Source: Alphaproteobacteria bacterium bin52 | GTDB lineage: Bacteria > Pseudomonadota > Alphaproteobacteria > Thalassobaculales > Thalassobaculaceae | Direction of reading: 5' to 3' | Length of the DNA: 64,000 bases | Assembly: GCA_002238645.1 (NCBI GenBank) | Contig: MPMT01000019.1 | Coordinates: 1 to 64,000, forward strand | Shown here: positions 2,188 through 33,832 of the stretch, piece by piece | How the letters are laid out: each line of letters opens with the position of its first letter | How positions within the stretch are numbered: position 1 is the first letter of the stretch | Program-made: the position numbers and the translations under genes | Notes under the pieces: generated by a model | Database searches by the model: none | What the model was told of the DNA's origin: nothing | The model's input: the letters and a program-made list of their open reading frames with translations, nothing else

Positions 2188-3183
2188 TCACAGCGCGTCA
2201 AGGAAGGCCATCAGCCCCTTGTTCTCCTTCCATGGGCGATCCGGTCCGGCTTCTGCGGCATCGCACAGCGCCATCGCCTTGGCCTTCATCTCAAGATTGA
2301 TCTCGGCGTAGATGTTGGTGGTATCGAGGCTCGCATGACCCAGCCAGGCACGGATTGTGTTCAGGTCGACTCCGGCTTGAAGCAAATGGCAGGCGCTCGT
2401 ATGGCGGATCATGTGAGGCGTGATTTTCCTCCCGGCGAGCGTCGGCACCCGCGCCGCGCAACGCTCGACAAGCCGATAGACCCCGAACCGTGTATACGGT
2501 CGCTGCTGCCGGTTGAGGAAGACGGCATCGCCGGGCGCTCGCTTCTCCGCCAGTGTGGAGAGAACACGTTCGGTCCGCGGCCAGAGAGGACACTGGCGAT
2601 GCTTTCCGCCCTTGCCATCGATGGTCACGAGTGCATGGCCGCCGTCGCGTCGTCCGATCTTCAGATCCTCCGCCACCAGGTTCGTCGCTTCGGAGGCCCG
2701 CGCGCCGGTGTTGTAGAGGAACAGGAGCAGGGCGTATTCTATCCGACCCCTCGGAGTACCTCGGTCGGGGACTTCAAGCAGAGCCTTCATCTCCGTCTTG
2801 CTGAGCCAGCCGATGGGCTGTGGCGCTGCCTTCTTCAATGCAATCGAACGGATATTGCCGCTCCACTCGAGATGAGCGGGATCGCGACTGGCGACGAAGC
2901 GTGCGAAGGCGCGAACTGCCGTCAGGCGCTGATTGCGGGTCTGCACGGAGCAGCCGCGGTCCTCTTCGATATGGGTGAGGAACTGCAGCACGCGCCGGGA
3001 CGTGAGGTCCTCCACCGCGAGCCGGTCGACCGGCTTGCGGGCCTTGGCGCCCACGAACGGCAGCAGGAGAGCGAAGGTGTCCCGGTAGCTCTTCTGCGTG
3101 TTCCGGGCGAGGTTGCGCTCCGTGACAATGTGTTCGGCCAGGAAGCGGCGCAGCCAGGGGCCGAGCGTGCGGAGATCACTCAT
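2188..3183 (-). CDS. ritC: RIT tyrosine recombinase, third gene
   Basis: A 331-residue tyrosine site-specific recombinase. It has an N-terminal SAM-like DNA-binding half and a C-terminal catalytic half. Visible catalytic elements are Arg in YNTGARASEA (about 159), HMIRHT (about 258), GHASLDTT, and the nucleophile Tyr in NIYAEI (about 290). The ATG at 3183 is preferred over upstream codons because it overlaps the end of ritB by 8 bp and opens with MSDLRTLG. The stop lies only 3 bp from the left inverted repeat, so the gene fills the element to its end. Together with ritA and ritB it presumably acts on the repeat ends; the division of labour among the three is not known from sequence. Confidence 0.9.
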   Translation of the reverse strand: MSDLRTLGPWLRRFLAEHIVTERNLARNTQKSYRDTFALLLPFVGAKARKPVDRLAVEDLTSRRVLQFLTHIEEDRGCSVQTRNQRLTAVRAFARFVASRDPAHLEWSGNIRSIALKKAAPQPIGWLSKTEMKALLEVPDRGTPRGRIEYALLLFLYNTGARASEATNLVAEDLKIGRRDGGHALVTIDGKGGKHRQCPLWPRTERVLSTLAEKRAPGDAVFLNRQQRPYTRFGVYRLVERCAARVPTLAGRKITPHMIRHTSACHLLQAGVDLNTIRAWLGHASLDTTNIYAEINLEMKAKAMALCDAAEAGPDRPWKENKGLMAFLDAL

Positions 3184-4129
3184 GGTCGCCTCCGTTGACA
3201 TAGCCGTCAAAGCGAACCGAGGCCTCATGCAGCAGCTCGGGCGTCATCGACAGGTAGACCTGGGTCCCGTCGAGATGCGCATGGCCGAGCCAGGTGGAGA
3301 GCACCGGCAACAGCCGCTGCACGTCGGCTCCCTGGCGGTACCACGATTCCAACCGGTGCACGGCCGCCGTGTGGCGCAGAGAATGAACGAACGGGGATTG
3401 CCGTCGGTCATCCTTGTCGCGGTGGATCCCGGCCGCCTTGAGCAGGTTCGCGAACGCGTAGTTGACGGTGGCCTTGACCAAAGGGGTGCCATCGAGGTTG
3501 GCAAGGAAGGTCGAGACCGCGCCCTGCGGCAGAGGGCGTTCGACGCGCTTGGCCGCGTAGGCCCGCAGGGCGTCGAGGAGTTGAGGGCCGACAGGAACCA
3601 GACGGGTCTTGAAGAACTTCGTATTCCGTATGGTCAGCACTGCATCGGCAAGGTCGGCGTCGTCGAGCGTCAAGCGTTGAGCCTCGCCGAAGCGCAGCCC
3701 GGCACCGTAGAGCACCAGGAGCAGCGCCCGCAGGGTGTCCGCGTCAAGCTGGACCGGGCGCTGCCGGCTGATATCGATGGCACCGAACAGCCGCCGCAAC
3801 TCGTCATGGGAGTAGACGTAGGGCGGCGCCGAACGCGGCTTTCTCGGCTCGTCTTCCGACGCCGGAAGCGGCGACTGTTCCGCATAGCCGCGGCTGATCG
3901 CATAGCGGTAGAACCCGGTCAAAGCGCTGTACTTGTTCGCCCGGTACCGGGTGAGTTGGCCATTGCCGGCAAGGAAGCTGAGTACATCCTCGTCGGCGAC
4001 GGTGCCGCAGTCGATGCTCTCGCCGACATGCCGGCTGAAGTAATGCAGCACTCGTGCGCTGGTGTCGAACTTCGCGCCGTGGGCCTGGCGCCACGCGACA
4101 TAGCGGTCGATCGCGTCCTGGAGCATCAT
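3176..4129 (-). CDS. ritB: RIT tyrosine recombinase, second gene
   Basis: A 317-residue tyrosine recombinase. An N-terminal core-binding domain (MMLQDAIDRYVAWRQ) is followed by a catalytic domain. The conserved elements are Arg in YGAGLRFGEA (about 146), HSLRHTAA (about 250), LGHAHLDGT and Tyr in QVYLSM (about 290). The frame is open far upstream to 4756, but that is antisense-type noise over ritA. The ATG at 4129 overlaps the ritA stop by four bases (ATGA), which implies translational coupling. The three genes form one transcription unit reading toward the left end of the element. Confidence 0.9.
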   Translation of the reverse strand: MMLQDAIDRYVAWRQAHGAKFDTSARVLHYFSRHVGESIDCGTVADEDVLSFLAGNGQLTRYRANKYSALTGFYRYAISRGYAEQSPLPASEDEPRKPRSAPPYVYSHDELRRLFGAIDISRQRPVQLDADTLRALLLVLYGAGLRFGEAQRLTLDDADLADAVLTIRNTKFFKTRLVPVGPQLLDALRAYAAKRVERPLPQGAVSTFLANLDGTPLVKATVNYAFANLLKAAGIHRDKDDRRQSPFVHSLRHTAAVHRLESWYRQGADVQRLLPVLSTWLGHAHLDGTQVYLSMTPELLHEASVRFDGYVNGGDHE

Positions 4130-5379
4130 GCCAGGCCCTCCAGGTCGATATGGGCGACCTCGCGCAGTGCGCCGAGCTGCACCTTGGCGTACGCCGATGT
4201 GGCCGCGACGCTGCGATGGCCGAGATAATCGCCGACCTCCTTCATCGACAAGCCGTGGTCGAGGAGATGCTGCGCCGCGCCATGGCGCAGCGCATGCGGA
4301 CCGCGACGCTTGCCCGTGATGCCGATCCGGTCGAGGCGGTTTCTGACGACATGGGATATCGCAGCTCCGCTCAGCGAACGGAGCGGGGCGTTCAACGTGA
4401 GGAAAAGTGTTCGCTCGCGACGCGGGGGCCGCAGTTCGCGCAGATATCTCACGATCGCCTGCCCCACGCCGCGCGAGAGCGGATAGTGATGCGTCCGTCC
4501 CGGCTTCGGACGGCGGACCCGCAACGTCTCGTCCTCCCAGTCGAGGTCGTCGAGCCGCAAACCGGCGACTTCGCCAGCGCGCAAGCCATAGGCGACCAGC
4601 ACCATCAAGATGGCACGGTCGCGCACATCGGCTGGCCGGCTGCCCTCGGTCGTGGCGAGCAGACGCACAACCTCGTCCCTGGCCAGCCCCTTCGGGAGGG
4701 ACTCGCCGGGATGGAACCGCGACGGCATGATCCCTTCGGCCAGCCCCGGGGTGCACCAGCCCCGGCGTTCGGCGAACCGGAAGAAGGTGCGGAGACGCTG
4801 CGAGTAATCGTGGATCGTGATCCGGCTACAGTCGCGGGTATGCCAGCGTGCAACCTCCCGGTCGATGTCGGTGATCTCGACCGCGGCCAGGGCGACCTCG
4901 CGTTCATCCAGTCCGTCGAAGAAACAATCGACGGTACTGAGGCAACCGCGGATCGTCTCTTCGGACCACCCAAGCTCTTCGCGCATCCATGCCTCGAAGA
5001 CCGCGACTTCGCCGGCGTGGACGTGTCGCGGCGCGTCGGGTTGCTCCAACATGTCGACGAAACTCAGCCAGCGTACCGCGTGGCCGAGGAATCTCTGACG
5101 TGCCTGCGGCAACGCGGATCGCCTGGACCGACGTCCACCGGGAATCGACCATTGATCGGCCGCAACCTCGACCTGGACCACGCTCACCCGATCGCCTTCG
5201 TGCAGCTCAAGAAAATGAACAAGGCTGGTCTGATGAACTGCAATCTTGCGCAATGTGGGTTGCCGGGCTCCCGCCTTTGCACAATGCCGGAGGTAACTCA
5301 GCCGTTCGTAAAGCAGCGGCGCAGCGAGATAGCTGGCTATGGTGCCGCGGTCGATGAAAAGGTCCTCGAACATGATCAT
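4126..5379 (-). CDS. ritA: RIT tyrosine recombinase, first gene
   Basis: A 417-residue tyrosine recombinase, the longest of the trio, as expected for the first gene of RIT elements. The ATG at 5379 is chosen because aaggag lies just upstream; a GTG-type extension would run into the promoter region. The N-terminal half (FEDLFIDRGTIASYL onward) should bind DNA. The catalytic half shows Arg in YGLRAGEVAG (about 265), HALRHGAA (about 360), LGHRSVAAT and Tyr in SAYAKV (about 396). Its start is about 45 bp inside the right inverted repeat, so the promoter probably lies in that repeat. It has a 4-bp overlap with ritB. Confidence 0.9.
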   Translation of the reverse strand: MIMFEDLFIDRGTIASYLAAPLLYERLSYLRHCAKAGARQPTLRKIAVHQTSLVHFLELHEGDRVSVVQVEVAADQWSIPGGRRSRRSALPQARQRFLGHAVRWLSFVDMLEQPDAPRHVHAGEVAVFEAWMREELGWSEETIRGCLSTVDCFFDGLDEREVALAAVEITDIDREVARWHTRDCSRITIHDYSQRLRTFFRFAERRGWCTPGLAEGIMPSRFHPGESLPKGLARDEVVRLLATTEGSRPADVRDRAILMVLVAYGLRAGEVAGLRLDDLDWEDETLRVRRPKPGRTHHYPLSRGVGQAIVRYLRELRPPRRERTLFLTLNAPLRSLSGAAISHVVRNRLDRIGITGKRRGPHALRHGAAQHLLDHGLSMKEVGDYLGHRSVAATSAYAKVQLGALREVAHIDLEGLA

Positions 5380-5424
5380 GTCTCCTTGTGGTTGGAGACA
5401 TGACCATGGCAAACGAATGAGAAT

Positions 5425-5519
5425 CAGAAAATTATGTTGCGGAGAGACGGAGGATTCTCATGTGTGGTGGGATGATCCAGCCTCTTCGCAACATATTGAT
5501 GGCCGCAACATACGCCCAG
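5425..5519. repeat. RIT element right inverted repeat (95 bp)
   Basis: A perfect inverted copy of 2090-2184. It carries ATGTTGC at 5434-5440 and GCAACAT at 5488-5494 and 5505-5511. It lies upstream of ritA and so probably contains the promoter of the three recombinase genes. Confidence 0.92.
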
Positions 5520-5545
5520 AGATGTTGCACGCAACATCTCTGGGC
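5514..5545. repeat. Right-end palindrome of the RIT element
   Basis: A perfect 32-bp dyad with 15-bp arms (gcccagagatgttgc and its complement) around the dinucleotide ac at 5529-5530. It adds one more ATGTTGC/GCAACAT pair and exists only at the right end. It may be a recombination core site or a remnant of the circular junction; this role is inferred. Confidence 0.8.
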
Positions 5546-6149
5546 CCACCAGAGGCGCGACTTCGTCCAGAGCGTGGTCGGCCATGTCCGGCTCTCTGCC
5601 TGGAGCGATGGCTGGGTCGAGCGGATCGCGGATATCTACCGGCTGAACAGGGAGCGGCTGGAACAGTACGATCCCGCTCGCGCACCCGAACGCCAGACGC
5701 CGGCCTTCGACGCGGCGCAGGCTGCCCTGAAGACCGCCGTCGAGCGCCTGTTCGCGGACGCCGAAGCGGAGCTGGCCAGCCTGTCGGACGGGTCCCGCAA
5801 GGCCAAGCCGCTGCGCAGACTGCTCAAGCATCGCGAGGGGCTGTGCGTCTTCCTCGACACGCCCTTCGTCCCCATGGACAATAACATCGCCGAGCGCGGA
5901 CTGCGCTGCGCGGTCATCCGACGCCGATTGAGCTTCGGTTCGAACAGCGAGGACGGCGCGAAGTTCACCGCGATCATGCACTCCGTGGTGGGCACGCTCT
6001 CGATGCACGGCATCGACGTGTTGCGCTGGCTGGAGGCATGGCTGACGGCGTGCGCGAAGAATGGCGGCAAGCCGCCGGACGACCTCGCGCCCTGGCTGCC
6101 CTGGACGTTGAGCGCGGCGCGCAAGCGCAAGTTCACGGCGCCGGGATGA
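5546..6149 (+). pseudogene. tnpC: IS66 transposase tnpC, 3' part
   Basis: The remaining 200 codons of the split transposase, continuing in frame from base 2095. It starts at HQRRDFVQSVVGHVRL and contains MDNNIAERGLRCAVIRRR, the conserved C-terminal IS66 block with the third acidic residue. It ends with KRKFTAPG and a stop at 6147-6149. No frameshift or stop interrupts it. It has no start of its own and cannot make a functional transposase alone. Its stop overlaps the start of the DUF4338 gene (ATGA), which shows the two genes belong to one unit of the original IS. Confidence 0.92.
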
Positions 6150-7027
6150 CCGGCACGATCGAGTGCCGCTACTACGGGCGCGACTTCACCACCGACGAGA
6201 TGGCGCTGCTGCGCGCTCTGATCGCCGCCGATCCGCAGCCCTCCCGAGCCGCCCTGTCCCGAGAGTTCTGCCAGCGTATCGGCTGGTTCAAGCCCAACGG
6301 CGGCCTCAAGGACATGATGGCCAAGGTGACCATGCTCGCCATGCACCGCGACGGCATGATCGTCCTGCCGCCGCCAAGGGGGCGGCAGGGTCGGCCCAAG
6401 CCCATCGTCTTCGGACCCGACACCGAGCCGCCGCTGTTCCCCGCACCGACCGCCCTTGACGAGGTTCGACCTCTCGACTTCCGCACCGTCGTGCGCAACA
6501 CACGGGAAGGGAAGCTGTGGAACGAGTTCGTCGCCCGCTACCACTACCTCGGATACAAGCCCCTGGTCGGCGCCCAGATGCGCTACGCCGTCCACGACCG
6601 CGACGGCTGGCCCGTCGCCATGCTCGGCTTCTCCACCGCCGCCTGGAAGCTCGCCCCGCGCGACAGATTCATCGGATGGTCGCCCGAGATGCGCGAGAAG
6701 AACCTGTCGCTGGTGGTCGACAATCCGCGCTTCCTGATCCTGCCCTGGGTCGAGATCCCAAACCTCGGCTCGCACATCCTCGCCATCGTGCGCCGGTGCC
6801 TGCCCGGGGACTGGACCGAGCGCTACAACACCACGCCCGTGCTCATCGAGACCTTCGTCGAGACGCCGCGCTATACCGGCGCCGTCTACCGCGCCTCGGG
6901 CTGGATACGGGTCGGGACCACCCAGGGCCGGGGACGCTACGACACGCACATGAAACGGGCCGAGCCCAGAAAGGACATCTGGCTGCGACCCCTTCGAAAA
7001 GACTGGAAGCGAACCCTCAATCGATGA
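6146..7027 (+). CDS. DUF4338 / DruA-like protein carried by the IS66 element
   Basis: A 293-residue protein with the DUF4338 domain, the family of Druantia DruA. Recognisable parts are RYHYLGYKPLVGAQMRYAV, MLGFSTAAWKLAPRD, the segment around PWVEIPNLGSHILA and the C-terminal SGWIRVGTTQGRGRYD. The ATG at 6146 overlaps the tnpC stop by four bases, and the gene ends 10 bp before the right inverted repeat. It is therefore an integral gene of the insertion sequence, not part of a defence island; no other Druantia gene is present. DUF4338 biochemistry is poorly defined. An accessory role in transposition or target choice is possible but inferred. Start and family are well supported. Confidence 0.88.
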   Translation: MTGTIECRYYGRDFTTDEMALLRALIAADPQPSRAALSREFCQRIGWFKPNGGLKDMMAKVTMLAMHRDGMIVLPPPRGRQGRPKPIVFGPDTEPPLFPAPTALDEVRPLDFRTVVRNTREGKLWNEFVARYHYLGYKPLVGAQMRYAVHDRDGWPVAMLGFSTAAWKLAPRDRFIGWSPEMREKNLSLVVDNPRFLILPWVEIPNLGSHILAIVRRCLPGDWTERYNTTPVLIETFVETPRYTGAVYRASGWIRVGTTQGRGRYDTHMKRAEPRKDIWLRPLRKDWKRTLNR

Positions 7028-20236: not shown

Positions 20237-20815
20237 GTCGGATCCTCAAGCCCTGTGAACAGGTCCGACAATAGCACCTGTAAACGGATCTTTCCAGCTC
20301 GAAACCGGCGGCTGGGCGCGACCGATTCACTGGTAGAACGCAAGGTGTCACTTTAGCCCAGGTGGCCAGGGCGAAGATGCCGGGATCGGCCGGCGTGGTC
20401 AGTCCTCGTTCGGCAGCAGGATGGTACGGATTTCACCGCCCGGGGGCGGGCGCGAATCTCGTTGCATGACAGGCGCATCAGGCGACCTGCGCGCGGGACC
20501 GCGTGCCGCTGGTCCGTAGTGGACGAGCGGCATCGGACGGGTCGGCGCCTCGCTCCGACAGGACAGGCATGAGGCCCGGTCATGCGCGCGGCGCGCCTGT
20601 GCGCCGTGTGGGGCAATCCGGCCGCAAAATCGTCCCGGTTCCCGGAGCCGCGCTCACCGACCGGAGCCGGATCGGGCGGCGGGAAGAACGGGACATGGGG
20701 ACGGGACCGCCGAGGTTGAAAGGCAGTGCGCGATCGCCCTCGGCGAGATGGTGAGCACGCCGCATCCGAACTATAGTTGGCGACAGATCCCGGTCTCCGG
20801 CTAGGGAGCGTGCGC
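20237..20815. other. Intergenic stretch upstream of betC
   Basis: 579 bp between the divergent antitoxin and choline-sulfatase genes, so it should hold both promoters. A 10-bp dyad aactatagtt at 20769-20778 precedes betC by about 40 bp and contains a TATAGT -10-like hexamer; no convincing -35 accompanies it. No coding frame here is believable. Confidence 0.4.
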
Positions 20816-22333
20816 ATGGCCCGGCGTCCGAACATCCTTTTCGTCATGGTCGACCAGCTTGCGCCGCAAGTACTGTCCGCCTACGGCGGAAAACGCGTGA
20901 AGACGCCGCATATCGACAATCTTGCTGCCGAAGGCATCGTGTTCCAGAACGCCTACTGCAACTTCCCGCTCTGCGCTCCGGCACGTTTCTCGATGTTGAG
21001 CGGACAGCTCCCCTCGCGCATCGGCGCGTTCGACAACGCGGTCGAGTTTCCCGCCTCGGTACCGACCTTCCAGCATTACCTGCGCCTTGCCGGCTATCGG
21101 ACCTGTCTTGCCGGCAAGATGCACTTTGTCGGACCGGATCAGCTGCACGGCTACGAGGAACGGATCACCACGGACGTCTACCCGGCGAATTTTCTCTGGA
21201 CACCGGACTGGCGGCTCGGTCCGGAGCAATGGCTCGAGTGGTATCACAGCATGCGCGCCGTGCTTGATGCCGGGCCGCACCGCAAGAGCGTCAACATTGC
21301 CTATGACGACGAGGTCGAGTTCGAGGCGATACGGTGGCTGCACGAACATGCCGACCAGGGTGACGGGCGGCCGTTCGCACTCACGGTCTCTTTCTTCTCA
21401 CCGCACGATCCCTATCTGGCGCCTCCGGCCTGGCTCGCGCGCAGCCGGTCCGGCGGGGTCGACCGGCCGGTTGTACCCGATATACCGCTTGAAGAACGTG
21501 ACCCGCACAGCCGTCGCCACTGGTTCCTGACGGGCCGGCACCTGGACCCGGTCAACGAGGCGGACGTCCTTCGCATGCGCCTCGCCTATTCCGCGGTAAC
21601 AAGTTACGTGGATGCGAAGATCGGCAGGATTCTCGAGACGCTGGACCAGATTGGTGCGGCCGGGAATACCCTCGTCGTGTTTACCTCGGATCATGGTGAT
21701 TCGCTTGGCGAGCGCGGGCTTTTCTTCAAGATGTCGTTTTTCGAGTGGTCGGTCCGCGTACCGCTGATCCTGCACGCCCCCTTCGCCTTAGGCCCCAGAC
21801 GCGTGTACGAAAACGTCTCTCACCTCGACCTGTTCCCGACCCTGCTCGAACTGACGGGAAACGGTGAGCTGCCGGAACTGGCGCTGCCGGTCGACGGACA
21901 CTCGTTGATCCCGATTGCGACCGGACCGGTAACGGACTGGCCCGATACCGTGCTGGCGGAGTACACGGCCGAGGGTGTCACCGCGCCGATGGTGATGGTT
22001 CGCAAGGGGCGGCACAAGCTGATCACGAGTTCCGAAGATCCACCGCTGTTGTTCGATCTCGAACTCGATCCGGACGAGACCCGGAACCTGGCAGGCGACG
22101 CCGGCTCGGCGGAAGTTCAGGCGGATCTCGAGGCGGTCGCGGCCGCAACCTGGGACATGCCGGCGCTTGACAGGGCGGTACGACAGGCACAGGCGGCACG
22201 GCGCGTTGTCGGTGGCGCGCTCGCAACCGGCGTTCACCGGCCCTGGGACTATCAGCCGATGCGGGACGCTTCGAGGACATACTACCGTGAAGCAGGTGAT
22301 GTCCGGGATGCCTATTCCGGGACTATCGGTTGA
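20816..22333 (+). CDS. betC: Choline-sulfatase
   Basis: A 505-residue sulfatase that hydrolyses choline-O-sulfate to choline and sulfate. N-terminal PNILFVMVDQLAPQVLSAYG carries metal ligands. The formylglycine motif is LCAPARFSMLSG (Cys-x-Pro-x-Arg). The BetC-type blocks PSRIGAFDNAVEFPA and CLAGKMHFVGPDQLHGYEER are present, and FTSDHGDSLGERGLFFK holds further metal ligands. The ATG at 20816 has gggag upstream; the codon at 20777 lacks one. The neighbouring GMC dehydrogenase, convergent downstream, may oxidise the choline released. No betaine aldehyde dehydrogenase is in the window. Confidence 0.93.
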   Translation: MARRPNILFVMVDQLAPQVLSAYGGKRVKTPHIDNLAAEGIVFQNAYCNFPLCAPARFSMLSGQLPSRIGAFDNAVEFPASVPTFQHYLRLAGYRTCLAGKMHFVGPDQLHGYEERITTDVYPANFLWTPDWRLGPEQWLEWYHSMRAVLDAGPHRKSVNIAYDDEVEFEAIRWLHEHADQGDGRPFALTVSFFSPHDPYLAPPAWLARSRSGGVDRPVVPDIPLEERDPHSRRHWFLTGRHLDPVNEADVLRMRLAYSAVTSYVDAKIGRILETLDQIGAAGNTLVVFTSDHGDSLGERGLFFKMSFFEWSVRVPLILHAPFALGPRRVYENVSHLDLFPTLLELTGNGELPELALPVDGHSLIPIATGPVTDWPDTVLAEYTAEGVTAPMVMVRKGRHKLITSSEDPPLLFDLELDPDETRNLAGDAGSAEVQADLEAVAAATWDMPALDRAVRQAQAARRVVGGALATGVHRPWDYQPMRDASRTYYREAGDVRDAYSGTIG

Positions 22334-22416
22334 CACCTGTCGAGCGCGACCGGCAGTCCGGGACCCCGGGGTGGAGCAGGCATCTCCTGTACCCGAATGG
22401 ATGTCACACGGACCGG

Positions 22417-24042
22417 TCAGGCCGCACGGGCCGCGTGGTCCACGCCGGCGTCCGCGTCCTCGAGGATCATGCGCGCGGCCTTCTCGCCGATCATGATCGA
22501 AGGTGCGTTGGTGTTGCCCGAGGTCAGTGTCGGCATGATCGAGGCGTCAACAACCCTGAGCCCGGCCAGCCCGTGCACCCGCAGCCGGTCATCCACCACG
22601 GCCATCGGGTCCGATCCCATCTTGCAGGTCCCCACCGGGTGGTAGGTGGTCTCGGCCGTCTGCCGGACCCAGTCGAGCAGCTCTTCGTCGCCGGCACGCG
22701 AAACTCCTGGTGCGATCTCCTCGCCGACGAACCCCTCGAGTGCCGGCGCCCCCATCCAGTCGCGGGCAATGCGCATCGCGGCCAGCAGCTTCGTGCGGTC
22801 ATCCACGGTCGAGAGGAAATTGAACCGGATCGTCGGAGGGTCGGCGGCGTCGGCCGAGGCAAGGTGGATCGAGCCGATACTGTCCGGACGCAGCACATGG
22901 GTGATCAGGGTCAGCCCGCGCTGATCGGCAATGTTCATGTTCCGCCCGATCAGGAACGGCATGATCGACATGCCCACATCCGGCGAATCGAGGCCCTCGC
23001 GAGTCCTGACATAGGCGCGCACCGGTGACGCCGGCAGTGCCAGGAACCCCTCTCCCTTCAGGCCGTAACGCAACACTTGCCGCACCATGCCGATGCCGCG
23101 GGCCAGGTCATTGTAGGTCACGCCACGTCTGGTGACCGCCCACTTCATGCGCGGTGCGTAATGATCGCGCAGGTTCTCGCCCACGCCGGGCAGCTCGTGG
23201 ACCGGTTCGATCCCGAGTTCCCTCAGCAACCCAGCCTGGCCGATGCCCGAAAGCTCCAGCAGCTGTGGTGAGTTGATCGATCCGGCGCTTACGATCACTT
23301 CGCGCGTGGCGTGGGCCTGGAACGGCATCGCATTCCGGCTGTATCGCACACCGGTGCACCGCCCTCCCTCAAGCACGAGCCTCTCGGCGAGCGCATCGGT
23401 AACGATCTCGAGATTGGACCGACCGCGTGCCGGGTCGAGGTAGCAGCGAGCGGTACTCATGCGCCGGCCACGCTGGATGGTGGCCTGGGTCAGGCCGATC
23501 CCGTCCTGGCTCGCGCCATTGTAGTCCGGACTGCGCTGGATGCCGATCTCGCCCGCGGCAGCGAACAGGGCGTCGTAGAGCGGTCCGCCCTCGCGCGGCT
23601 CGGTGACCCTGAGCGGACCGGACCGGCCGCGATAGGCATCATCACCGCCGTCATAGCGTTCCATCGACTTGAAGAACGGCAACACGTCCTGATAGCTCCA
23701 GCCGCGGTTGCCGAGCTGGGCCCAGTGATCGAAGTCCTGGGCCTGGCCGCGCACGAACACCATCCCGTTGATCGAGCTCGAGCCACCGAGCAGTTTGCCG
23801 CGCGGAACCGGAATGCGGCGCCGGCCGGATCCCTCGTCGGGTTCCGAAGAGTAGAGCCAGTTCGCCCGCGGGTTGTCGATCAGCTTCGCAAACCCCACCG
23901 GGATTCGCGACCAGGGATGGCTGGGCCTGCCGGCCTCGAGCAACAGCACCGAGTGGCGTCCGCCATCGGACAGCCTGTTGGCGAGAACCGAGCCCGCAGA
24001 ACCGGCGCCGACGATCACGTAGTCATAACGGCTTTCCTGCAT
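22417..24042 (-). CDS. GMC-family FAD dehydrogenase (choline dehydrogenase-like)
   Basis: A 541-residue glucose-methanol-choline oxidoreductase. It has the FAD-binding motif [18 protein letters not shown] at the N-terminus, the GMC signatures [18 protein letters not shown] and [17 protein letters not shown], and the catalytic C-terminal HPVGTCKMG (about 467) with [16 protein letters not shown] at 24042 with gaggag upstream. Beside betC, choline oxidation (BetA) is possible, but many paralogues oxidise other alcohols and no aldehyde dehydrogenase is near. The paralogue at 45079 belongs to the F420 cluster. A decayed GMC tail lies just upstream. Confidence 0.88.
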
Positions 24043-24125
24043 CGACCCTGCTCCTCGCACAGTGTTCCCGCTCTTCTGCGGATCGGAACCGAGAATAGAA
24101 CGGCGACAGCGCCACTGCGAGTGGT

Positions 24126-24290
24126 TCAGCCTGCTCGGCCCCATGCGCCTTCCAGGTCCGGGACGACACCGTGTGCCGCCTGCCTGCCGATCATAATCGA
24201 CGGCGCACCGGGATTGCCCGAGGCGAGCACCGGCATGATCGAGGCGCTGGCATCCCCCGCGGCCAGCCAGCCCGTGCGCCCCACAGCAGG
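24126..24290 (-). pseudogene. Remnant C-terminus of a second GMC oxidoreductase
   Basis: A minus-strand frame reads LAAGDASASIMPVLASGNPG, then APSIMIGRQAAHG, ending at the stop 24126-24128. This matches the last 45 residues of the adjacent intact GMC protein ([20 protein letters not shown] and onward). The preceding HGLAG motif is in another frame. Nothing earlier in the gene survives. It is probably the tail of a former tandem duplicate. Confidence 0.8.
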
Positions 24291-24547
24291 CCGAGCGCGC
24301 GCCCAAGCCCGGCGTGCACTTGCCCGGACGTCTTCACCCGGTCAATGGGCGCGTTTCAATCGATCCAATCGTTGATATCCGGATTGCGGGCCTCCTCCTT
24401 GAGGCCGCTGGTCGCAGCAGGACGCCATAACCTCCAGGCGGGGGACTTCCGGCCCCCTTACCCACGGCATCATGCCGGGTGCGCTCTCTGGGTCTGCTGG
24501 CGACATCCGTCCCGGTGTCACCCGCTCCGAGAGTATCGCGGCGGGGA

Positions 24548-28208: not shown

Positions 28209-28961
28209 ATGCCTCTCCCCCTTGCCCGCCACTCGCCTCACATCGCCATCATCACCATCGACAACCAGCCGAAGATGAACGCGATGAGCCGGGAGATGCT
28301 GAGCGAGCTCGGCGAGCTGTGGGACGAGCTCGAGCGTGACGAGACCCGCTGCATCATCCTGACCGGCGCCGGAAGCCGCGCCTTTTGCGCCGGGGCCGAT
28401 ATCGGCGGTGACCTCTCCGCCGACCAGGAACAGGCCGCGGCCGTCAACCACGCCCTGCTCAAGACCGACACCTATTCCAAGCCGATCGTCGCCGCCGTGA
28501 ACGGCGACTGTGCCGGAGGCGGTGTCGAACTGCTGCTCGCCTGCGATATCCGGGCTGCGGTGCCGCATGCGCGATTCGGCCTGCCGGAGGTGCGCTGGTC
28601 GATCTACCCGTTCGGCGGGGCGACGGTGAAGCTCGCGCAACAGATCGGACATGTCCACGCCATGGATCTTCTGCTGACCGGGCAGCTGATCACGGCCCGG
28701 CGCGCGGTCGAGATCGGCCTGGTCAACCGGATCGTCGAAGCAGACGACCTGCTCGACTGGGCGATCGAGACCGCGGGTGTGATCGCCGCCAACAGCCCGT
28801 CGGCCGTCCAGGCGGTCAAGACCCAGATGAGTGCGACCCTCGCCGCGCATGCGCTCGCCCGCGAACCGATGGACCAGGAACTCGGCGATGCGGTCCGCAC
28901 CGGCCCCGACTTCGCGGAGGGTGTCGCGGCGTTCCGCCAGAAACGCCGCCCCGTCTACTGA
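28209..28961 (+). CDS. Enoyl-CoA hydratase/isomerase family protein
   Basis: A 250-residue crotonase-fold enzyme acting on a CoA thioester. The oxyanion-hole segments are RAFCAGADIGGD and NGDCAGGGVELLLACDIRAA. The first catalytic-position Glu is in GGGVELLL and the second region reads FGLPEVRWSIYPFGGATVKL. The ATG at 28209 gives a normal N-terminus. It heads a four-gene operon with an acyl-CoA ligase and two double-VOC proteins, suggesting a degradation pathway starting from a free acid. The substrate is unknown. Confidence 0.88.
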   Translation: MPLPLARHSPHIAIITIDNQPKMNAMSREMLSELGELWDELERDETRCIILTGAGSRAFCAGADIGGDLSADQEQAAAVNHALLKTDTYSKPIVAAVNGDCAGGGVELLLACDIRAAVPHARFGLPEVRWSIYPFGGATVKLAQQIGHVHAMDLLLTGQLITARRAVEIGLVNRIVEADDLLDWAIETAGVIAANSPSAVQAVKTQMSATLAAHALAREPMDQELGDAVRTGPDFAEGVAAFRQKRRPVY

Positions 28962-28968
28962 GACCGAA

Positions 28969-30525
28969 ATGACCAGCAAGAGACCCCGGGCGCACACCTT
29001 CACCGATCTCCTCGACGAGATGGCCGGCCGGCACCGGCACCGCGAGGCGATCATCTGGCGCGGGCAGCGTCTCGACTGGGCCGGATGGCGGGAGCGAAGT
29101 GCTGCACTTGCCGGGTTCCTGCAGCGACACGGGGTCGAACGCGGCGACAGGGTGGCAATCCTGCTGCCCAACCGACCGGAATGGCTCATCTCGGTGATGG
29201 CCGCACTGCGCATCGGCGCGATCGCGGTGCCGATCAGCACCTTCTCGAGTCCGCGGGAACTCGCATGGACGCTCGCGCACTGCGACCCCGCGGCCCTCGT
29301 CCTCGCACCGGCATTCGGTGACCGGGACTGGCTTGCGGCGCTGCGCCGGGCGGAACGTGTGCCCGACTGCCTGGTATCGGTCGACAACTCGCCGGTCGGC
29401 ACGCCGTGGGACCGCGCCCTTGCCGGCGAACCCGCCACCGGACCCGGACCCGGACCTGGGGATACATGCTTCATCCTCTACACTTCGGGTTCCACCGCCG
29501 ACCCGAAGGGGGTGACGCTGCTGCACCGCGACGTCATCGCCAACGGGTTCGACATCGGCGAGCGCCAGCACCTGACCGCCGACGACAGACTCTGGTGCGC
29601 CATCCCCCTGTTCTGGTCGTTCGGCGCCGCGAATGCCCTGCCCGCGGTCATGAGCCACGGCGGCACCCTGGTCCTGCAGGAACGGTTCGATCCGGGCAGC
29701 GCGATCCGCCTGATCCGCGAGGAGGGCTGCACGGTCTTCTACGGTATGGTCAACATGGTCCGGGCAATGCGCGATCATCCGGGCTGGTCAGCCGAAGCCT
29801 TCGTGTCGATGCGTACCGGGCTGACCATCGGGCTCGCACGTGACGTCACCTTCATGGTCGAGACCCTGTCGGCCCCGCAGCTCTGCACCGTCTACGGTTC
29901 CACTGAAACCTGTGGCAACTGCGCAGTCAGCGACGCCCTCGACCCGCTCGACCTTCGCCTCGCGACCCAGGGCCTGCCGCTGCCGGGCATGCAGATTCGT
30001 GCCGTCGACCCCCGGACCCGCGCGCCGCTTCCGAACGGCACTGTCGGGGAACTCGCCGTGCGCGGTCACGTCACTCCCGGGTACTTCCGGGCTCCGGAAC
30101 TCACGGCCCGGGCCTTCGACGCCGACGGCTGGTTCCTGACCGGGGACCTCGGGCTGGTGGGCAATGATGGCCGGGTCCGGTTTCGCGGACGCATCCGGGA
30201 ACTGATCAAGACCGGCGGCATCAACGTGTCACCGCTGGAGGTTGAGACCGTGCTCATCCAGCATCCCGATGTGCGCGAGGCACACGTGATCGGCCTCGCG
30301 GACCCGGACCGCGACGAGATCGTGGCGGCCGTGGTGGAACCGGAGCCGGGAAGGACCGTCGATCCGACGGTGCTGCGCACCTGGTGCCGGGAACTGCTCG
30401 CAGCCTACAAGGTTCCGGCCACGATCCGCCTGGCACAGGGCGCCGACCTGCCGCGGACCGCCACCGGAAAGATTCACAAACCGGGGCTGCCGGCCCTGTT
30501 TGACGCGGCGGAGGCGCAGCCATGA
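28969..30525 (+). CDS. AMP-dependent acyl-CoA ligase
   Basis: A 518-residue ANL enzyme activating a carboxylic acid to a CoA ester. The phosphate loop YTSGSTADPKGV lies at about 168. YGSTETCGNCA, GWFLTGDLGLV, RGRIRELIKTGGINVSP and the catalytic Lys in PRTATGKIHKPG follow. It starts 7 bp after the hydratase gene and its stop overlaps the first VOC gene by four bases. It differs clearly from the ligase at 9860 and probably has another substrate. Confidence 0.9.
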   Translation: MTSKRPRAHTFTDLLDEMAGRHRHREAIIWRGQRLDWAGWRERSAALAGFLQRHGVERGDRVAILLPNRPEWLISVMAALRIGAIAVPISTFSSPRELAWTLAHCDPAALVLAPAFGDRDWLAALRRAERVPDCLVSVDNSPVGTPWDRALAGEPATGPGPGPGDTCFILYTSGSTADPKGVTLLHRDVIANGFDIGERQHLTADDRLWCAIPLFWSFGAANALPAVMSHGGTLVLQERFDPGSAIRLIREEGCTVFYGMVNMVRAMRDHPGWSAEAFVSMRTGLTIGLARDVTFMVETLSAPQLCTVYGSTETCGNCAVSDALDPLDLRLATQGLPLPGMQIRAVDPRTRAPLPNGTVGELAVRGHVTPGYFRAPELTARAFDADGWFLTGDLGLVGNDGRVRFRGRIRELIKTGGINVSPLEVETVLIQHPDVREAHVIGLADPDRDEIVAAVVEPEPGRTVDPTVLRTWCRELLAAYKVPATIRLAQGADLPRTATGKIHKPGLPALFDAAEAQP

Positions 30526-31448
30526 CGGTTCCCGAGCTTGCCTACATCGCGCTTGCCGTCGCCGATCCCGGGGCAAGCGCGGAATTCTTCGAGGATGCAT
30601 TCGGACTGCCGCGTGACGAACTCGCGATGGATGGCCGCACGGTGCCGGCGATCCGGGCCGGGCGTACGGCACTCGCGCTGTTCGCTGCGACCGATCCGTT
30701 CCTCGGGCCCGGGACCGTTCGCGGCGTACACCACGTCGCCATTGCCGACGACGACCCGCCCGGCGCCGCCGCCGCGACCGGCATTCCGATCTGCGGCGAA
30801 CCACGGCCCGGTCCCGGCGGACGCTGCCAGGTGGCGCTCGCCCCGTCGGAAACCCTGAGGGTCCGGGTGCGCCTGACCGAACCGCTGGAGTCCTGGACCG
30901 CCTCGTCCGACGTGGTCGAGCGGGTCGACCATATCGGGGTCGCCTCGACCGACAACCGCGCGGCCCGCGACATCTTTACCGGACGCCTCGCCTGTCGCTA
31001 CGAGAGTCAGCAGACCGACAGTGAGGTCGAGACCATCGCCGAGAGCTTCACCACCGATACCGACCTGCCGGTCTTCCATGTCCGTCGCTCGCGCCTGGTC
31101 GCCAGCATGCGTGTGACCTTCATCACCGTCGGCGATACCGAACTCGAGTTTCTCGAGGACCTGACCACCCGCGTCAGGGCCGACGAGGCCCGGCACGATG
31201 CTGCCGGCAACACCCGCGGCGACCGCAGCGCCATCGCCCGGTTCATTGCCATGCGCGGAGCCGGACTCCACCACGTCGCCTTCAAGACCCCGGACATCGC
31301 GGCGGCTCTCGCCCGTCTTGATGCGGCTGGCCATCGCCTGATCGACCGGCGCGGTCGTCCCGGATCGCGGCGTGCGCAGATCGGCTTCATTCACCCCGCC
31401 GCCAGCGGCGGGGTGCTCCTGCACTTCGTCCAACGCAAGGAACTGTGA
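30522..31448 (+). CDS. Double-VOC-domain protein, first of a tandem pair
   Basis: A 308-residue protein with two vicinal-oxygen-chelate units. The N-terminal unit starts LAYIALAVADPGASAEFFED (residues 5-24). The C-terminal unit starts RVDHIGVASTDNRAARDIFT (about 135) and ends GAGLHHVAFKTPDIAAALAR, then GFIHPAASGGVLLHFVQ, a style seen in methylmalonyl-CoA epimerases. Potential metal ligands are His in VDHIG, Glu in TELEFLE and His in LHHVAF. Its ATG overlaps the ligase stop (ATGA). An isomerase or dioxygenase acting on the CoA-activated substrate is plausible; the true reaction is unknown. Confidence 0.82.
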   Translation: MTVPELAYIALAVADPGASAEFFEDAFGLPRDELAMDGRTVPAIRAGRTALALFAATDPFLGPGTVRGVHHVAIADDDPPGAAAATGIPICGEPRPGPGGRCQVALAPSETLRVRVRLTEPLESWTASSDVVERVDHIGVASTDNRAARDIFTGRLACRYESQQTDSEVETIAESFTTDTDLPVFHVRRSRLVASMRVTFITVGDTELEFLEDLTTRVRADEARHDAAGNTRGDRSAIARFIAMRGAGLHHVAFKTPDIAAALARLDAAGHRLIDRRGRPGSRRAQIGFIHPAASGGVLLHFVQRKEL

Positions 31449-31450
31449 CC

Positions 31451-32392
31451 ATGAACGGCCAGATCCTGTCCTACGTCGCCCTCGTCGCGCGGGATACCGA
31501 GGCAACCGGCCGGTTTCTGGGCGAGGCGCTGGGGCTGCAGGCAACCCCCGTGCCGCTCGGGTCGCGGGAGGTGACGTTCTTCGGCGTTGGCGGTACCGCG
31601 ATCGGAGTGTTCGAGGCCACCGACCCCTGGCTCGATTCCCCCGTCTTCCCGGGGGTCCATCACATGGCGCTCGCGGCCCCCGATCCCGTCGCTGCAGCCG
31701 GTGCACTGCCGGTCGTCCTGCAGGGCACCGGACCCGGCGGACGGCGGTTTGCCGCACTCGATCCGGCGGCAACCGCCGGTGTCCGGACCCGGTTTACCGA
31801 GCCGCTCGACATTCCCTGGCATGACGGCCCGGTCATCGGCATCGACCATCTCGGAATCGCGTGCGCCGACGAGGACGACGCAATCCGGGTCTTCGTTGAC
31901 ACCCTGGGTTGCCCGCTGGAGAGCAGCGAGACCGATCTCGAACTGCGCTCCGTGACCGAGAGTTTTGTCTCCGACCGTTACGGTGCCGTCTTCCACTCGC
32001 GCCCGCCGCATATCCTCGGCGGGCTGCGGGCCGTCTTCGCGACACTTGCGGGCTGCGAGCTGGAGTTTCTCTCCGACGCAGGGCCACCCCTGCCTCCGGG
32101 TGAACGGCCGCCCGCAGACGGGGGCTCGACCCGGGGTGACCGCAGTGCGATTGCCCGGTTCATTGACCGGCACGGCCCGGGACTGGCGCATATCGCCCTT
32201 GCCACCGGCAGGATCGATGCGCTGCTTGCCCGGCTTGCGGGCGACGGCTGGCGGATGATCGATCACGAGGGACGGCCCGGCGGGCGCGGGTCGCTGATCG
32301 GATTCGTGCACCCACAGAACTTTGGCGGCGGCCTGCTGATCCACTTCGTGGAGCCGGCATCGGAAGGCGGCTACGCCGGGAAATTCGCATAG
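31451..32392 (+). CDS. Double-VOC-domain protein, second of a tandem pair
   Basis: A 313-residue paralogue of the preceding protein. The same two-unit layout is seen: LSYVALVARDTEATGRFLGE at the start, IGIDHLGIACADEDDAIRVF in the middle, STRGDRSAIARFIDRHGPGL and IGFVHPQNFGGGLLIHFVEP at the end. The STRGDRSAIARFI block is almost shared with its neighbour. ATG at 31451 is preferred to GTG at 31445 because aagga lies at suitable distance. The two proteins may form a heteromer or act in succession. The pair arose by tandem duplication followed by strong divergence. Confidence 0.82.
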   Translation: MNGQILSYVALVARDTEATGRFLGEALGLQATPVPLGSREVTFFGVGGTAIGVFEATDPWLDSPVFPGVHHMALAAPDPVAAAGALPVVLQGTGPGGRRFAALDPAATAGVRTRFTEPLDIPWHDGPVIGIDHLGIACADEDDAIRVFVDTLGCPLESSETDLELRSVTESFVSDRYGAVFHSRPPHILGGLRAVFATLAGCELEFLSDAGPPLPPGERPPADGGSTRGDRSAIARFIDRHGPGLAHIALATGRIDALLARLAGDGWRMIDHEGRPGGRGSLIGFVHPQNFGGGLLIHFVEPASEGGYAGKFA

Positions 32393-32413: not shown

Positions 32414-32878
32414 GTGAGGGAACTAGAGATACGGGGTCTCGCCCGGATTTTCGCGCTGCAGGAGATCGCCCGTCCTGCGAGTGCGAACAACCGGGACGCA
32501 GCCGCAACTCCCGAGCGGGGTGCGCACGCGTCAGGCATCATCGGGAAGGCGACCGACATCGGCCAGGGCGGCATCCCCGGAATCGATCTTCAATTCTTTC
32601 CTCGCGTGCCGGAGAGCCAGGCATGGCCCCGCACACCTTCGCCTCGCCGCGCGGAAGATCGGTCGTTCCCGCGCGATCCGGACTCCGCGTTGCACCGACT
32701 GATCAGGGCATCCCGGGACGGCAGTCGTACGGTCGTGCACGTCCGTACGACGCCGGGAATCGACCCGTACACCCATCCACCCGGGCATGGTATCTCTTCC
32801 GCCAGCCACATCGGCAGCGCCGAAGGGCAGGCGCTGGCGGAAACGATGCAGGCGGTGACTTCGGAGCGGGAGAAATGA
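32414..32878 (+). CDS. Uncertain 154-codon reading frame
   Basis: The frame opens at GTG 32414 and its stop overlaps the next gene's ATG by four bases (ATGA). This coupling and its last third (HPPGHGISSASHIGSAEGQA) look protein-like. The first two thirds are rich in Arg, Pro and Ala without recognisable motifs. It may be a real but unknown small gene, a decayed gene whose 3' end survives, or chance. I do not recognise a family. Confidence 0.3.
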   Translation: MRELEIRGLARIFALQEIARPASANNRDAAATPERGAHASGIIGKATDIGQGGIPGIDLQFFPRVPESQAWPRTPSPRRAEDRSFPRDPDSALHRLIRASRDGSRTVVHVRTTPGIDPYTHPPGHGISSASHIGSAEGQALAETMQAVTSEREK

Positions 32879-33252
32879 GCACTGACGCAAGACCGAGACT
32901 CGCGGTGGGACATGTGAGGCTGGAGGTGGAGGACGTCGGCGAGGCCTACGCGTTCTTTGTGCGCCACGGCATGCGCGACATCTTCAAGGGCGAGGACTTC
33001 GGAGTGCTCGAGCTGCGCGGCGGCACCCACCTGGTGCTGAGCCGCACCCGGGCGCCGACCGAACCGGGCCGGAAGGCCCCGTTCGACCTCATGGTCGACG
33101 ACATCGACGCAGCCCGCGCGGAGTTCACGGGCGCTGGAGTGACAGCCACCGAAGTCGAGCGCGGACGAATCCACGACACCTTCCACATCGAAGGTCCGGG
33201 CGGCTACCGGTTTGCGGTGACCTCGTCCCACGCCGGAGACCGCGCGGTATGA
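32875..33252 (+). CDS. VOC (glyoxalase-fold) protein
   Basis: A 125-residue single-chain VOC protein. It has two beta-alpha-beta units: LAVGHVRLEVEDVGEAYAFF with a His near residue 13, and APFDLMVDDIDAARAEFTGA in the second half. The end DTFHIEGPGGYRFAVTSSH supplies further possible ligands. ATG at 32875 with ggag about 10 bp upstream. Such proteins include lyases, isomerases and antibiotic-binding proteins; no function can be assigned. It is followed by the cupin gene. Confidence 0.82.
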   Translation: MSTDARPRLAVGHVRLEVEDVGEAYAFFVRHGMRDIFKGEDFGVLELRGGTHLVLSRTRAPTEPGRKAPFDLMVDDIDAARAEFTGAGVTATEVERGRIHDTFHIEGPGGYRFAVTSSHAGDRAV

Positions 33253-33340: not shown

Positions 33341-33832
33341 ATGACAGACTTTTCACCGAAGGCCGGATCGGCGGCGGTCAGGGCGGCGGATGTAGAGGCT
33401 CGCGTCGGCAGCGGCTACCCCGAGCCTCTTGCGGCCGAGTGCAGGGACCGGATCAAGCGCATCCTTGGCGACGTGTTCGGCCTGACCCAGTTCGGCGTCA
33501 ACCTGACGACGCTGCCATCAGGCGCCTGGTCTTCCCAGAGACACTGGCATGAACACGAGGACGAGTTCATCTACGTCATCGAAGGCGAACTGGTCCTGGT
33601 CAGCGACGATGGCGAGGAGACACTCGAGGCCGGCACGTGCGCGGGCTTCCCGGCCGGACGGGCGAACGGCCATCATCTCGTCAATCGATCCGGTTCAACG
33701 GCAAGCTATCTCGAGATCGGCACTCGCTCGCCGAACGAGCGTTCGCACTACCCGGACGTCGACCTGGAAGCGCGGAAATCCGGCGGCAGCTTTCGGTTCA
33801 CCCGCCGGAACGGTGAACCCTACGAGACCTGA
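33341..33832 (+). CDS. Cupin-domain protein
   Basis: A 163-residue single-domain cupin. Motif 1 is HWHEHEDEFIYVIEGELVLV with the His-x-His-x3-5-Glu metal site. Motif 2 is AGFPAGRANGHHLVN with the later His. It belongs to the group often annotated as mannose-6-phosphate isomerase-like cupins; sugar activity should not be assumed. ATG at 33341 with aagga upstream. It sits 11 bp before the M15-like gene, so both are probably co-transcribed. Confidence 0.88.
   Translation: MTDFSPKAGSAAVRAADVEARVGSGYPEPLAAECRDRIKRILGDVFGLTQFGVNLTTLPSGAWSSQRHWHEHEDEFIYVIEGELVLVSDDGEETLEAGTCAGFPAGRANGHHLVNRSGSTASYLEIGTRSPNERSHYPDVDLEARKSGGSFRFTRRNGEPYET

Follow-up and report, generated by a model that had tools for sequence, protein, structure and literature searches.

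The 64,000-nucleotide stretch of Alphaproteobacteria bacterium bin52 analysed here (contig MPMT01000019.1, positions 1 to 64,000; hereafter the window) encodes, at 28209-32392, an enoyl-CoA hydratase (ECH), an acyl-CoA ligase and two adjacent paralogous proteins, VOCA and VOCB. The twin proteins appear to be two-domain enzymes of the vicinal oxygen chelate (VOC) superfamily, with a metal-less N-terminal domain and a C-terminal domain that resembles methylmalonyl-CoA epimerase (MCE) and holds a candidate His/Glu/His/His metal site. In the interpretation that we favour, to which we give about an even chance, they act on an acyl-CoA by metal-dependent enolate chemistry, as part of a CoA-dependent acid route that includes a crotonase with Glu and Gln at its two catalytic positions. 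The superfamily and the domain order are recognisable; what is new is the altered ligand set and a pathway without a match.

AlphaFold models (pLDDT 91.8 for VOCA and 90.3 for VOCB) predict four beta-alpha-beta-beta-beta modules in each protein, that is, two VOC domains, and Glyoxalase Pfam matches above cut-off likewise place both in the superfamily. The initial annotation had proposed two VOC units plus an epimerase-like C-terminus. The two units hold; what was taken for a separate C-terminus makes up the latter half of domain 2, and a three-part protein is discarded because the predicted fold has only two VOC domains. By sequence, the solved structures that match best are those of MCEs and of MCE-like proteins carrying the label ‘glyoxalase’, whereas 4-hydroxyphenylpyruvate dioxygenase (HPPD) and one entry of the lactoylglutathione-lyase type match more weakly and over short stretches; hhalign against 13 MCEs gives a probability of 99.7. 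The STRGDRSAIARFI block, earlier picked out as shared by the twins, does sit in the MCE-matching stretch, before the beta5 histidine. Taken alone, the C-terminal domain of VOCA matches the MCE-like structure 3oa4 (Z 19.2, root-mean-square deviation (rmsd) 1.6, 135 aligned residues, 31% identity). Over the whole length, both twins match hydroxymandelate synthase, HPPD and extradiol (catechol) dioxygenases; the values against 7yvv are Z 22.4, rmsd 3.2 and 258 aligned residues for VOCA, and Z 21.4, rmsd 3.2 and 262 aligned residues for VOCB, and the full-length rows displayed span Z 18-22, 228-266 aligned residues and rmsd 3.0-4.1.

VOCA and VOCB are 43% identical, which bears out the proposal that they are paralogues, and each is the only full-length paralogue of the other found in the 4.2-Mb genome; the other matches there are a partial MCE-like one on contig C46 (E 1.3e-6) and three weaker ones. 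The statement that they differ greatly outside a few shared blocks was too strong: the similarity is full-length, and VOCA and VOCB agree at the candidate active-site positions.

In human MCE, as described in an excerpt of PMC6525113, cobalt is bound by His50 (beta1), His122 (beta5) and Glu172 (beta8), the last termed strictly conserved among VOCs. Both histidines are kept in the twins, and the beta8 position is histidine. The candidate ligands of VOCB are His133, Glu205, His247 and His298, with an invariant Glu164; those of VOCA are given in Table 1. All 40 aligned family members have His at beta1, Glu at beta4 and His at beta5, and VOCA, VOCB and the single forms alike retain the four candidate ligands. 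At beta8, histidine is found in 42 of 42 readable sequences (39 of 39 aligned rows, the fortieth being unreadable where a contig end cuts it, and three of three further sequences), and glutamate in all 13 MCE controls, which were obtained from 33 loci queried, 20 of them matched, 17 yielding an MCE sequence and 13 aligned. The invariant Glu168 of VOCA (Glu164 of VOCB) meets the MCE base after beta2 in an ungapped register; hhalign puts the gap elsewhere, and an insertion of about 20 residues makes this equivalence ambiguous.

The N-terminal domain, with positions placed by eye on predicted strands, has Tyr at beta1 (40/40), Phe at beta4 (37/40) and mostly Thr or Ile at beta8, so that only the beta5 His is kept; in VOCA these are Tyr8, Phe54, Thr119 or its neighbours, and His71. 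The beta1 and beta4 residues argue against a second metal site here. Tyr8 and His71 (30543-30545 and 30732-30734) do not vary among the 40 aligned members, although the domain has no evident metal site. Whether one or both twins have a metal site had been posed as a check: both keep the full candidate set, with the beta8 change from Glu to His, and therefore neither looks like a dead copy. VOCB in particular is rejected as a dead paralogue, since it retains all four candidate ligands and Glu164. Where VOCA has the first histidine of its HH pair (His250), 12 of 12 VOCB sequences have Ala.

This ligand set bears on two known kinds of reaction. HPPD, hydroxymandelate synthase and the extradiol dioxygenases have a 2-His-1-Glu triad, and we think it unlikely that the twins are oxygenases of either the HPPD/hydroxymandelate-synthase or the extradiol type, using an altered, three-His iron site to cleave or oxidise an acyl-CoA or a free acid. 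The beta8 glutamate of that triad is missing in all 42 readable sequences, VOCA scores 19.1 with the 4HPPD model against a cut-off of 277, and the active-site domain resembles MCE more closely by sequence and, in the case of VOCA, by structure too. An oxygenase would, however, suit the best whole-length structure matches, and some copies have an FAA-hydrolase-like gene (L088) or GST genes (L042, L047, L048 and L113, the last in the genome of L049) nearby (here and below, L marks loci, G genomes and C contigs); three-His iron sites do exist in cupin dioxygenases, according to an excerpt of PMC4219425.

Quite unlikely, in our view, is that the twins are ordinary broad-specificity acyl-CoA epimerases of the methylmalonyl/ethylmalonyl type, duplicated and serving ordinary dicarboxylyl-CoA metabolism, although the C-terminal domain resembles MCE and MCE itself epimerises other malonyl-CoA analogues such as benzylmalonyl-CoA (PMC8360864, in excerpt). 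Both proteins fall short of the TIGR03081 cut-off of 114.95 (87.2 bits for VOCA, 75.1 for VOCB), and the genome has its separate MCE-like match on C46. The beta8 glutamate of MCE is one of its two base glutamates, and its loss argues against a plain epimerase. The excerpted text of PMC8142540 gives MCE a Glu/Glu base pair.

The metal-dependent enolate chemistry that we prefer draws also on the gene neighbourhood. The initial annotation had the four window genes packed with 4-bp overlaps. All four are confirmed on one strand, and the ATGA shared by the ligase and VOCA is the sole firm 4-bp overlap. ECH and the ligase are separated by 7 bp (stop 28959-28961, ATG 28969); a GTG at 31445 would make VOCB overlap VOCA by 4 bp, and the start common to VOCB homologues is the ATG at 31451, 2 bp past the VOCA stop. 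ECH has both catalytic glutamates of the crotonases, at the positions of rat Glu144 and Glu164, and the ligase has the AMP-binding and C-terminal domains of the ANL superfamily. Among the best 25 of 109 NCBIfam models, which would give the substrate class of the ligase, all are under their own cut-offs, with PRK06187 on top.

The comparison covered 31 distinct loci, each with a complete or almost complete member of the family: the window, L039-L059, L088-L093 and L110-L112. The concern that the pair might be only a random neighbour is answered by its recurrence, with the twins side by side in 13 loci (the window, L039-L049 and L088) and a junction of 1-3 bp in 12 of these and 286 bp in L040. 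Seventeen loci have a single VOC gene and L050 is cut within VOCA. VOCA and VOCB form separate clades (support 98/100 and 100/100), which fits a single duplication whose products stayed paired; how the clades join among the single forms is poorly resolved. The constancy with which the twins stand side by side suggests that they form a heteromer.

A CoA-activating gene lies in the cluster on the same strand in 16 of the 31 loci and, in the available sequence, is absent from the cluster in 15. It is a type III CoA-transferase in 14 (upstream of the VOC gene in 13, downstream in L088) and a ligase in two, the window and L039, which belong to the same genus. A crotonase follows the VOC gene or genes in 19 of the 31, directly in 15 and after one TctC gene in four (L041, L047, L048 and the genome of L049, where the link spans two contigs joined via a split VOCB); this count leaves out the window and L039, whose own ECH lies upstream. 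By comparison, the entire 4.2-Mb genome of the window has 33 CoA-transferase and 23 crotonase matches. What had been proposed as a degradation module for an unusual carboxylic acid thus survives in part: members of the VOC family go together with the metabolism of CoA-activated acids, an unusual acid is a possibility, and the particular set of this ECH and ligase with the twins occurs in only two of 31 loci, both in the window's genus.

Other neighbours vary. GntR and TctC genes are found mostly at loci labelled Burkholderiales, MmgE/PrpD and CMD genes near the VOC gene in L043, L045 and L046, and TauE in L055, L057, L058 and L091-L093; L054 has a TRAP gene, L053 an amidohydrolase and a metallo-beta-lactamase nearby, and L089 CMD. 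In L051 (7205-10513), from a metagenome-assembled genome labelled Dehalococcoidia (UBA1141), a single VOC gene has an AMDase/EutA-like gene on one side and a GMC oxidoreductase on the other. In L042 (522-4999), several TctC-like binding-protein stretches adjoin the CoA-transferase/VOC locus.

The crotonases beside VOC genes elsewhere are 27-32% identical to the window's ECH and differ from it at one catalytic position: Glu is present at position 144 in 17 of 17 read, and position 164 is Gln in all 17 (the near-copy L058 of L057 and L093, cut by a contig end, are left out, and the partial L044 is included). They therefore do not have both catalytic glutamates, and their Gln makes ordinary hydration doubtful; the roles of Glu144 and Glu164 are treated in excerpts of PMC4619459 and PMC9804861. 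None of 17 control crotonases from the window's genome has Gln at the second position, several of them being so diverged that the column assignment is unsure; these are 17 of 23 crotonase matches, after removal of the window's ECH, the C70 gene described next and four partial or weak ones.

The window's genome has one Glu/Gln crotonase, on contig C70, which shares 60-65% identity with the crotonases of L055, L057, L091 and L092. Its locus includes a class II aldolase that passes the NCBIfam PRK07044 cut-off. In L091-L093, from the same family, the same aldolase faces the VOC gene, the Glu/Gln crotonase comes next and TauE lies on the aldolase side. At that place the window's genome (G000) and G001 have no VOC gene, and about 100 bp separate aldolase and crotonase; G018 has the crotonase locus without VOC and a VOC gene on another contig. 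It seems, from this comparison of gene order, that the twins of the window have displaced the VOC gene of the C70 locus. Class II aldolases lie directly beside the VOC gene in L091-L093, one gene off in L044 and 5.5 kb off in L047, and are 72-79% identical to the C70 aldolase.

Across 61 genomes, a full-length VOC protein occurs in 10 and a Glu/Gln crotonase in nine; eight have both, two VOC only and one the crotonase only, and the other 50 lack the two (Fisher p = 1.3e-7, or 1.3e-5 when only the family, with 36 genomes, is counted). The VOC-only genomes are G025 (68% complete) and G023, whose crotonase runs into a contig end and so fell below the threshold; the crotonase-only genome is G033 (59% complete). 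In G000, G001 and G018 the VOC and crotonase genes are on separate contigs, and therefore the link is not only operonic.

These neighbourhoods also bear on two further explanations. One takes the twins for glutathione-linked isomerases of the glyoxalase type, with a glutathione adduct as substrate instead of a CoA ester. A GFA-like gene stands directly before VOCA in L040 (family scan) and, identified by its similarity to that gene, in L043, L044, L045 and L050 as well, a GloB above its NCBIfam cut-off just precedes VOCA in L046, and the GST genes already mentioned could be read in the same way. Such neighbours are patchy, though, with none found beside the VOC gene in the window, L055, L057, L058 or L091-L093, and the recurrent neighbours are CoA-activation and crotonase genes; we regard this explanation as very unlikely.

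The other, that the neighbourhood is a chance or merely regional gathering of unrelated genes, strikes us as highly improbable. It is true that the twins were not seen with this ECH and ligase outside the window's genus, and that crotonase and CoA-transferase genes are numerous (23 and 33 matches in the 4.2-Mb genome) and stand side by side at several other places in it; yet the association recurs in alpha- and betaproteobacterial records, and VOC and crotonase co-occur even if unlinked. For the VOC/crotonase link chance is largely refuted, and for the window's own ECH and ligase it is a possible explanation.

The enolate chemistry set out at the start would proceed as follows. An acid would first be converted to its CoA thioester; judging from the gene families, the ligase would do this in the window and a type III CoA-transferase in many of the relatives. 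The VOC enzymes would then bind the acyl-CoA through the thioester carbonyl and a neighbouring oxygen, and a metal-stabilised enolate could lead to an epimerisation, isomerisation or lyase step. The Glu144/Gln164 crotonase (on C70 here) and probably the class II aldolase would act in the same route, as their linkage indicates. The paralogues are most likely subunits of one heteromer or stereo-complementary partners, and the single-gene relatives would be homomers. In the window's genus, an ancestral single VOC gene at C70 would have been replaced by the twin pair with its own ligase and ECH. The CoA-transferases, of which the four scanned (of 14) are of dicarboxylate type though under the model cut-offs, and the TctC and TRAP transporters hint at a small polar acid as substrate. 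A bolder version has an obligate heteromer, a three-His-one-Glu site with cupin-like ligands on a VOC scaffold, a new VOC reaction on acyl-CoA and an undescribed small-acid pathway of CoA-transferase, VOC, Gln164 crotonase and class II aldolase; this we put forward only tentatively, as doubtful.

Several observations weigh against the enolate chemistry and its pathway. The lost beta8 glutamate means that the ordinary epimerase mechanism is not given, and the best full-length structure match is to the O2-using HPPD and hydroxymandelate synthase. In the available sequence, neither a CoA-activating gene nor a crotonase lies beside the VOC gene in L051, L053, L056, L059, L089 and L090, the last having a CoA-transferase 3.7 kb away on the opposite strand. 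The activating gene is absent from L043, L045, L046, L055, L057, L058, L091, L092 and L093, and the crotonase from L042 and L088; L043 and L050 stop at a contig edge. The twins of L040 are far apart for such a pair (286 bp), and the partner genes at other loci are not orthologous to the window's ECH and ligase. Among the genomes, G033 carries the crotonase but no VOC gene and G025 a VOC gene but no crotonase; the Fisher test ignores shared ancestry.

Itaconate/mesaconate, arylmalonate, furoate and indoleacetate were considered as substrates and are not supported. The four CoA-transferases scanned, of 14, are under every listed cut-off, and the molybdenum-hydroxylase, AMDase/EutA-like and FAA-hydrolase-like neighbours are also under theirs; neither the excerpted papers on indoleacetate nor the titles and abstract openings on furoate showed a matching gene set. 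The initial annotation knew of no described pathway with the window's set, and none was matched in the open-access literature, judged by titles and the starts of abstracts; nor do these describe the altered metal site or gene set. At E <= 1e-25 the VOC family is rare: it was found in four of 385 genomes of the class, the window's own included, in one of 398 genomes of a phylum sample, again the window's own, and in five of 300 genomes of the order around G783, including G783 and G782 from an earlier search. None of eight matching plasmid records has a place covering 80% of VOCA.

Table 1. Coordinates of the genes, domains and residues discussed (window positions unless a contig is named)
Feature	Position	Strand	Remarks
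ECH, enoyl-CoA hydratase (crotonase)	28209..28961	+	PF00378, 2.1e-50
ECH catalytic Glu	GGGVE Glu107; FGLPE Glu127	+	Numbered from ATG 28209
Acyl-CoA ligase, AMP-forming, ANL superfamily	28969..30525	+	PF00501 255 bits, PF13193 60 bits
VOCA, 308 aa, two VOC domains	30522..31448	+	Glyoxalase Pfam domains, predicted fold
VOCA N-terminal VOC domain, residues ~6-119	30537..30878	+	No evident metal site
VOCA C-terminal MCE-like VOC domain, residues ~134-304	30921..31433	+	Insertion ~171-190 after beta2
VOCA His137, beta1 candidate metal ligand	30930..30932	+	
VOCA Glu168, invariant, candidate equivalent of MCE base	31023..31025	+	
VOCA Glu209, beta4 candidate metal ligand	31146..31148	+	
VOCA His251, beta5 candidate metal ligand	31272..31274	+	
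VOCA His301, beta8 position, Glu in MCE (Glu to His)	31422..31424	+	
VOCB, 313 aa, two VOC domains	31451..32392	+	Conserved ATG; 315 aa if GTG 31445
VOCB His298, beta8 Glu-to-His position	32342..32344	+	
C70 locus (L114, G000:C70): TauE, acyl-CoA ligase, class II aldolase, Glu/Gln crotonase	3037-6955		

Elsewhere in the window, a short open reading frame at 32878-33252 looks glyoxalase-like by eye, the frame 32623-33252 being without a Pfam or NCBIfam match; it lies about 0.5 kb from VOCB here and about 2.8 kb from it in L039, and is followed in the window by a cupin (33341-33832). At 20777-24306, a sulfatase that matches the Pfam family of the choline-sulfatase C-terminus converges with a BetA-like GMC oxidoreductase that scores just under the cut-off of PRK02106 choline dehydrogenase (600.2 against 605). 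From these matches, the pair possibly converts choline-O-sulfate to betaine.

A clade with histidine at beta8, tightly spaced duplicates and a crotonase minus one catalytic acid together suggest altered chemistry on two familiar scaffolds. They also point to an unassigned CoA-dependent route for an acid in alpha- and betaproteobacteria that are known largely through environmental DNA, and they make up a compact, directly testable gene set. Among the closest known systems is MCE (MCE/MCEE; TIGR03081; PDB 3rmu, 1jc4 and 6wf6, with 3oa4 as a relative labelled ‘glyoxalase’). The twins share with it the sequence and fold of the C-terminal domain, the beta1 His, beta4 Glu and beta5 His and the block before the beta5 His; they differ in having two domains, His for Glu at beta8, the insertion after beta2 and a CoA-transferase/crotonase context. 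With HPPD, hydroxymandelate synthase and the type I extradiol dioxygenases they share, in the predicted models, a tandem of two VOC domains of which the C-terminal one holds the intact candidate metal site, but not the beta8 Glu of the triad, and their sequences resemble HPPD over a short stretch only. Both catalytic glutamates of enoyl-CoA hydratase are present in the window's ECH, and the crotonases of the relatives belong to the same family, but with Gln at the Glu164 position. The type III CoA-transferases known from succinate-glutarate, mesaconate and formyl-CoA systems provide the closest models to the four transferases scanned, all of which nevertheless score under the cut-offs of every model listed.

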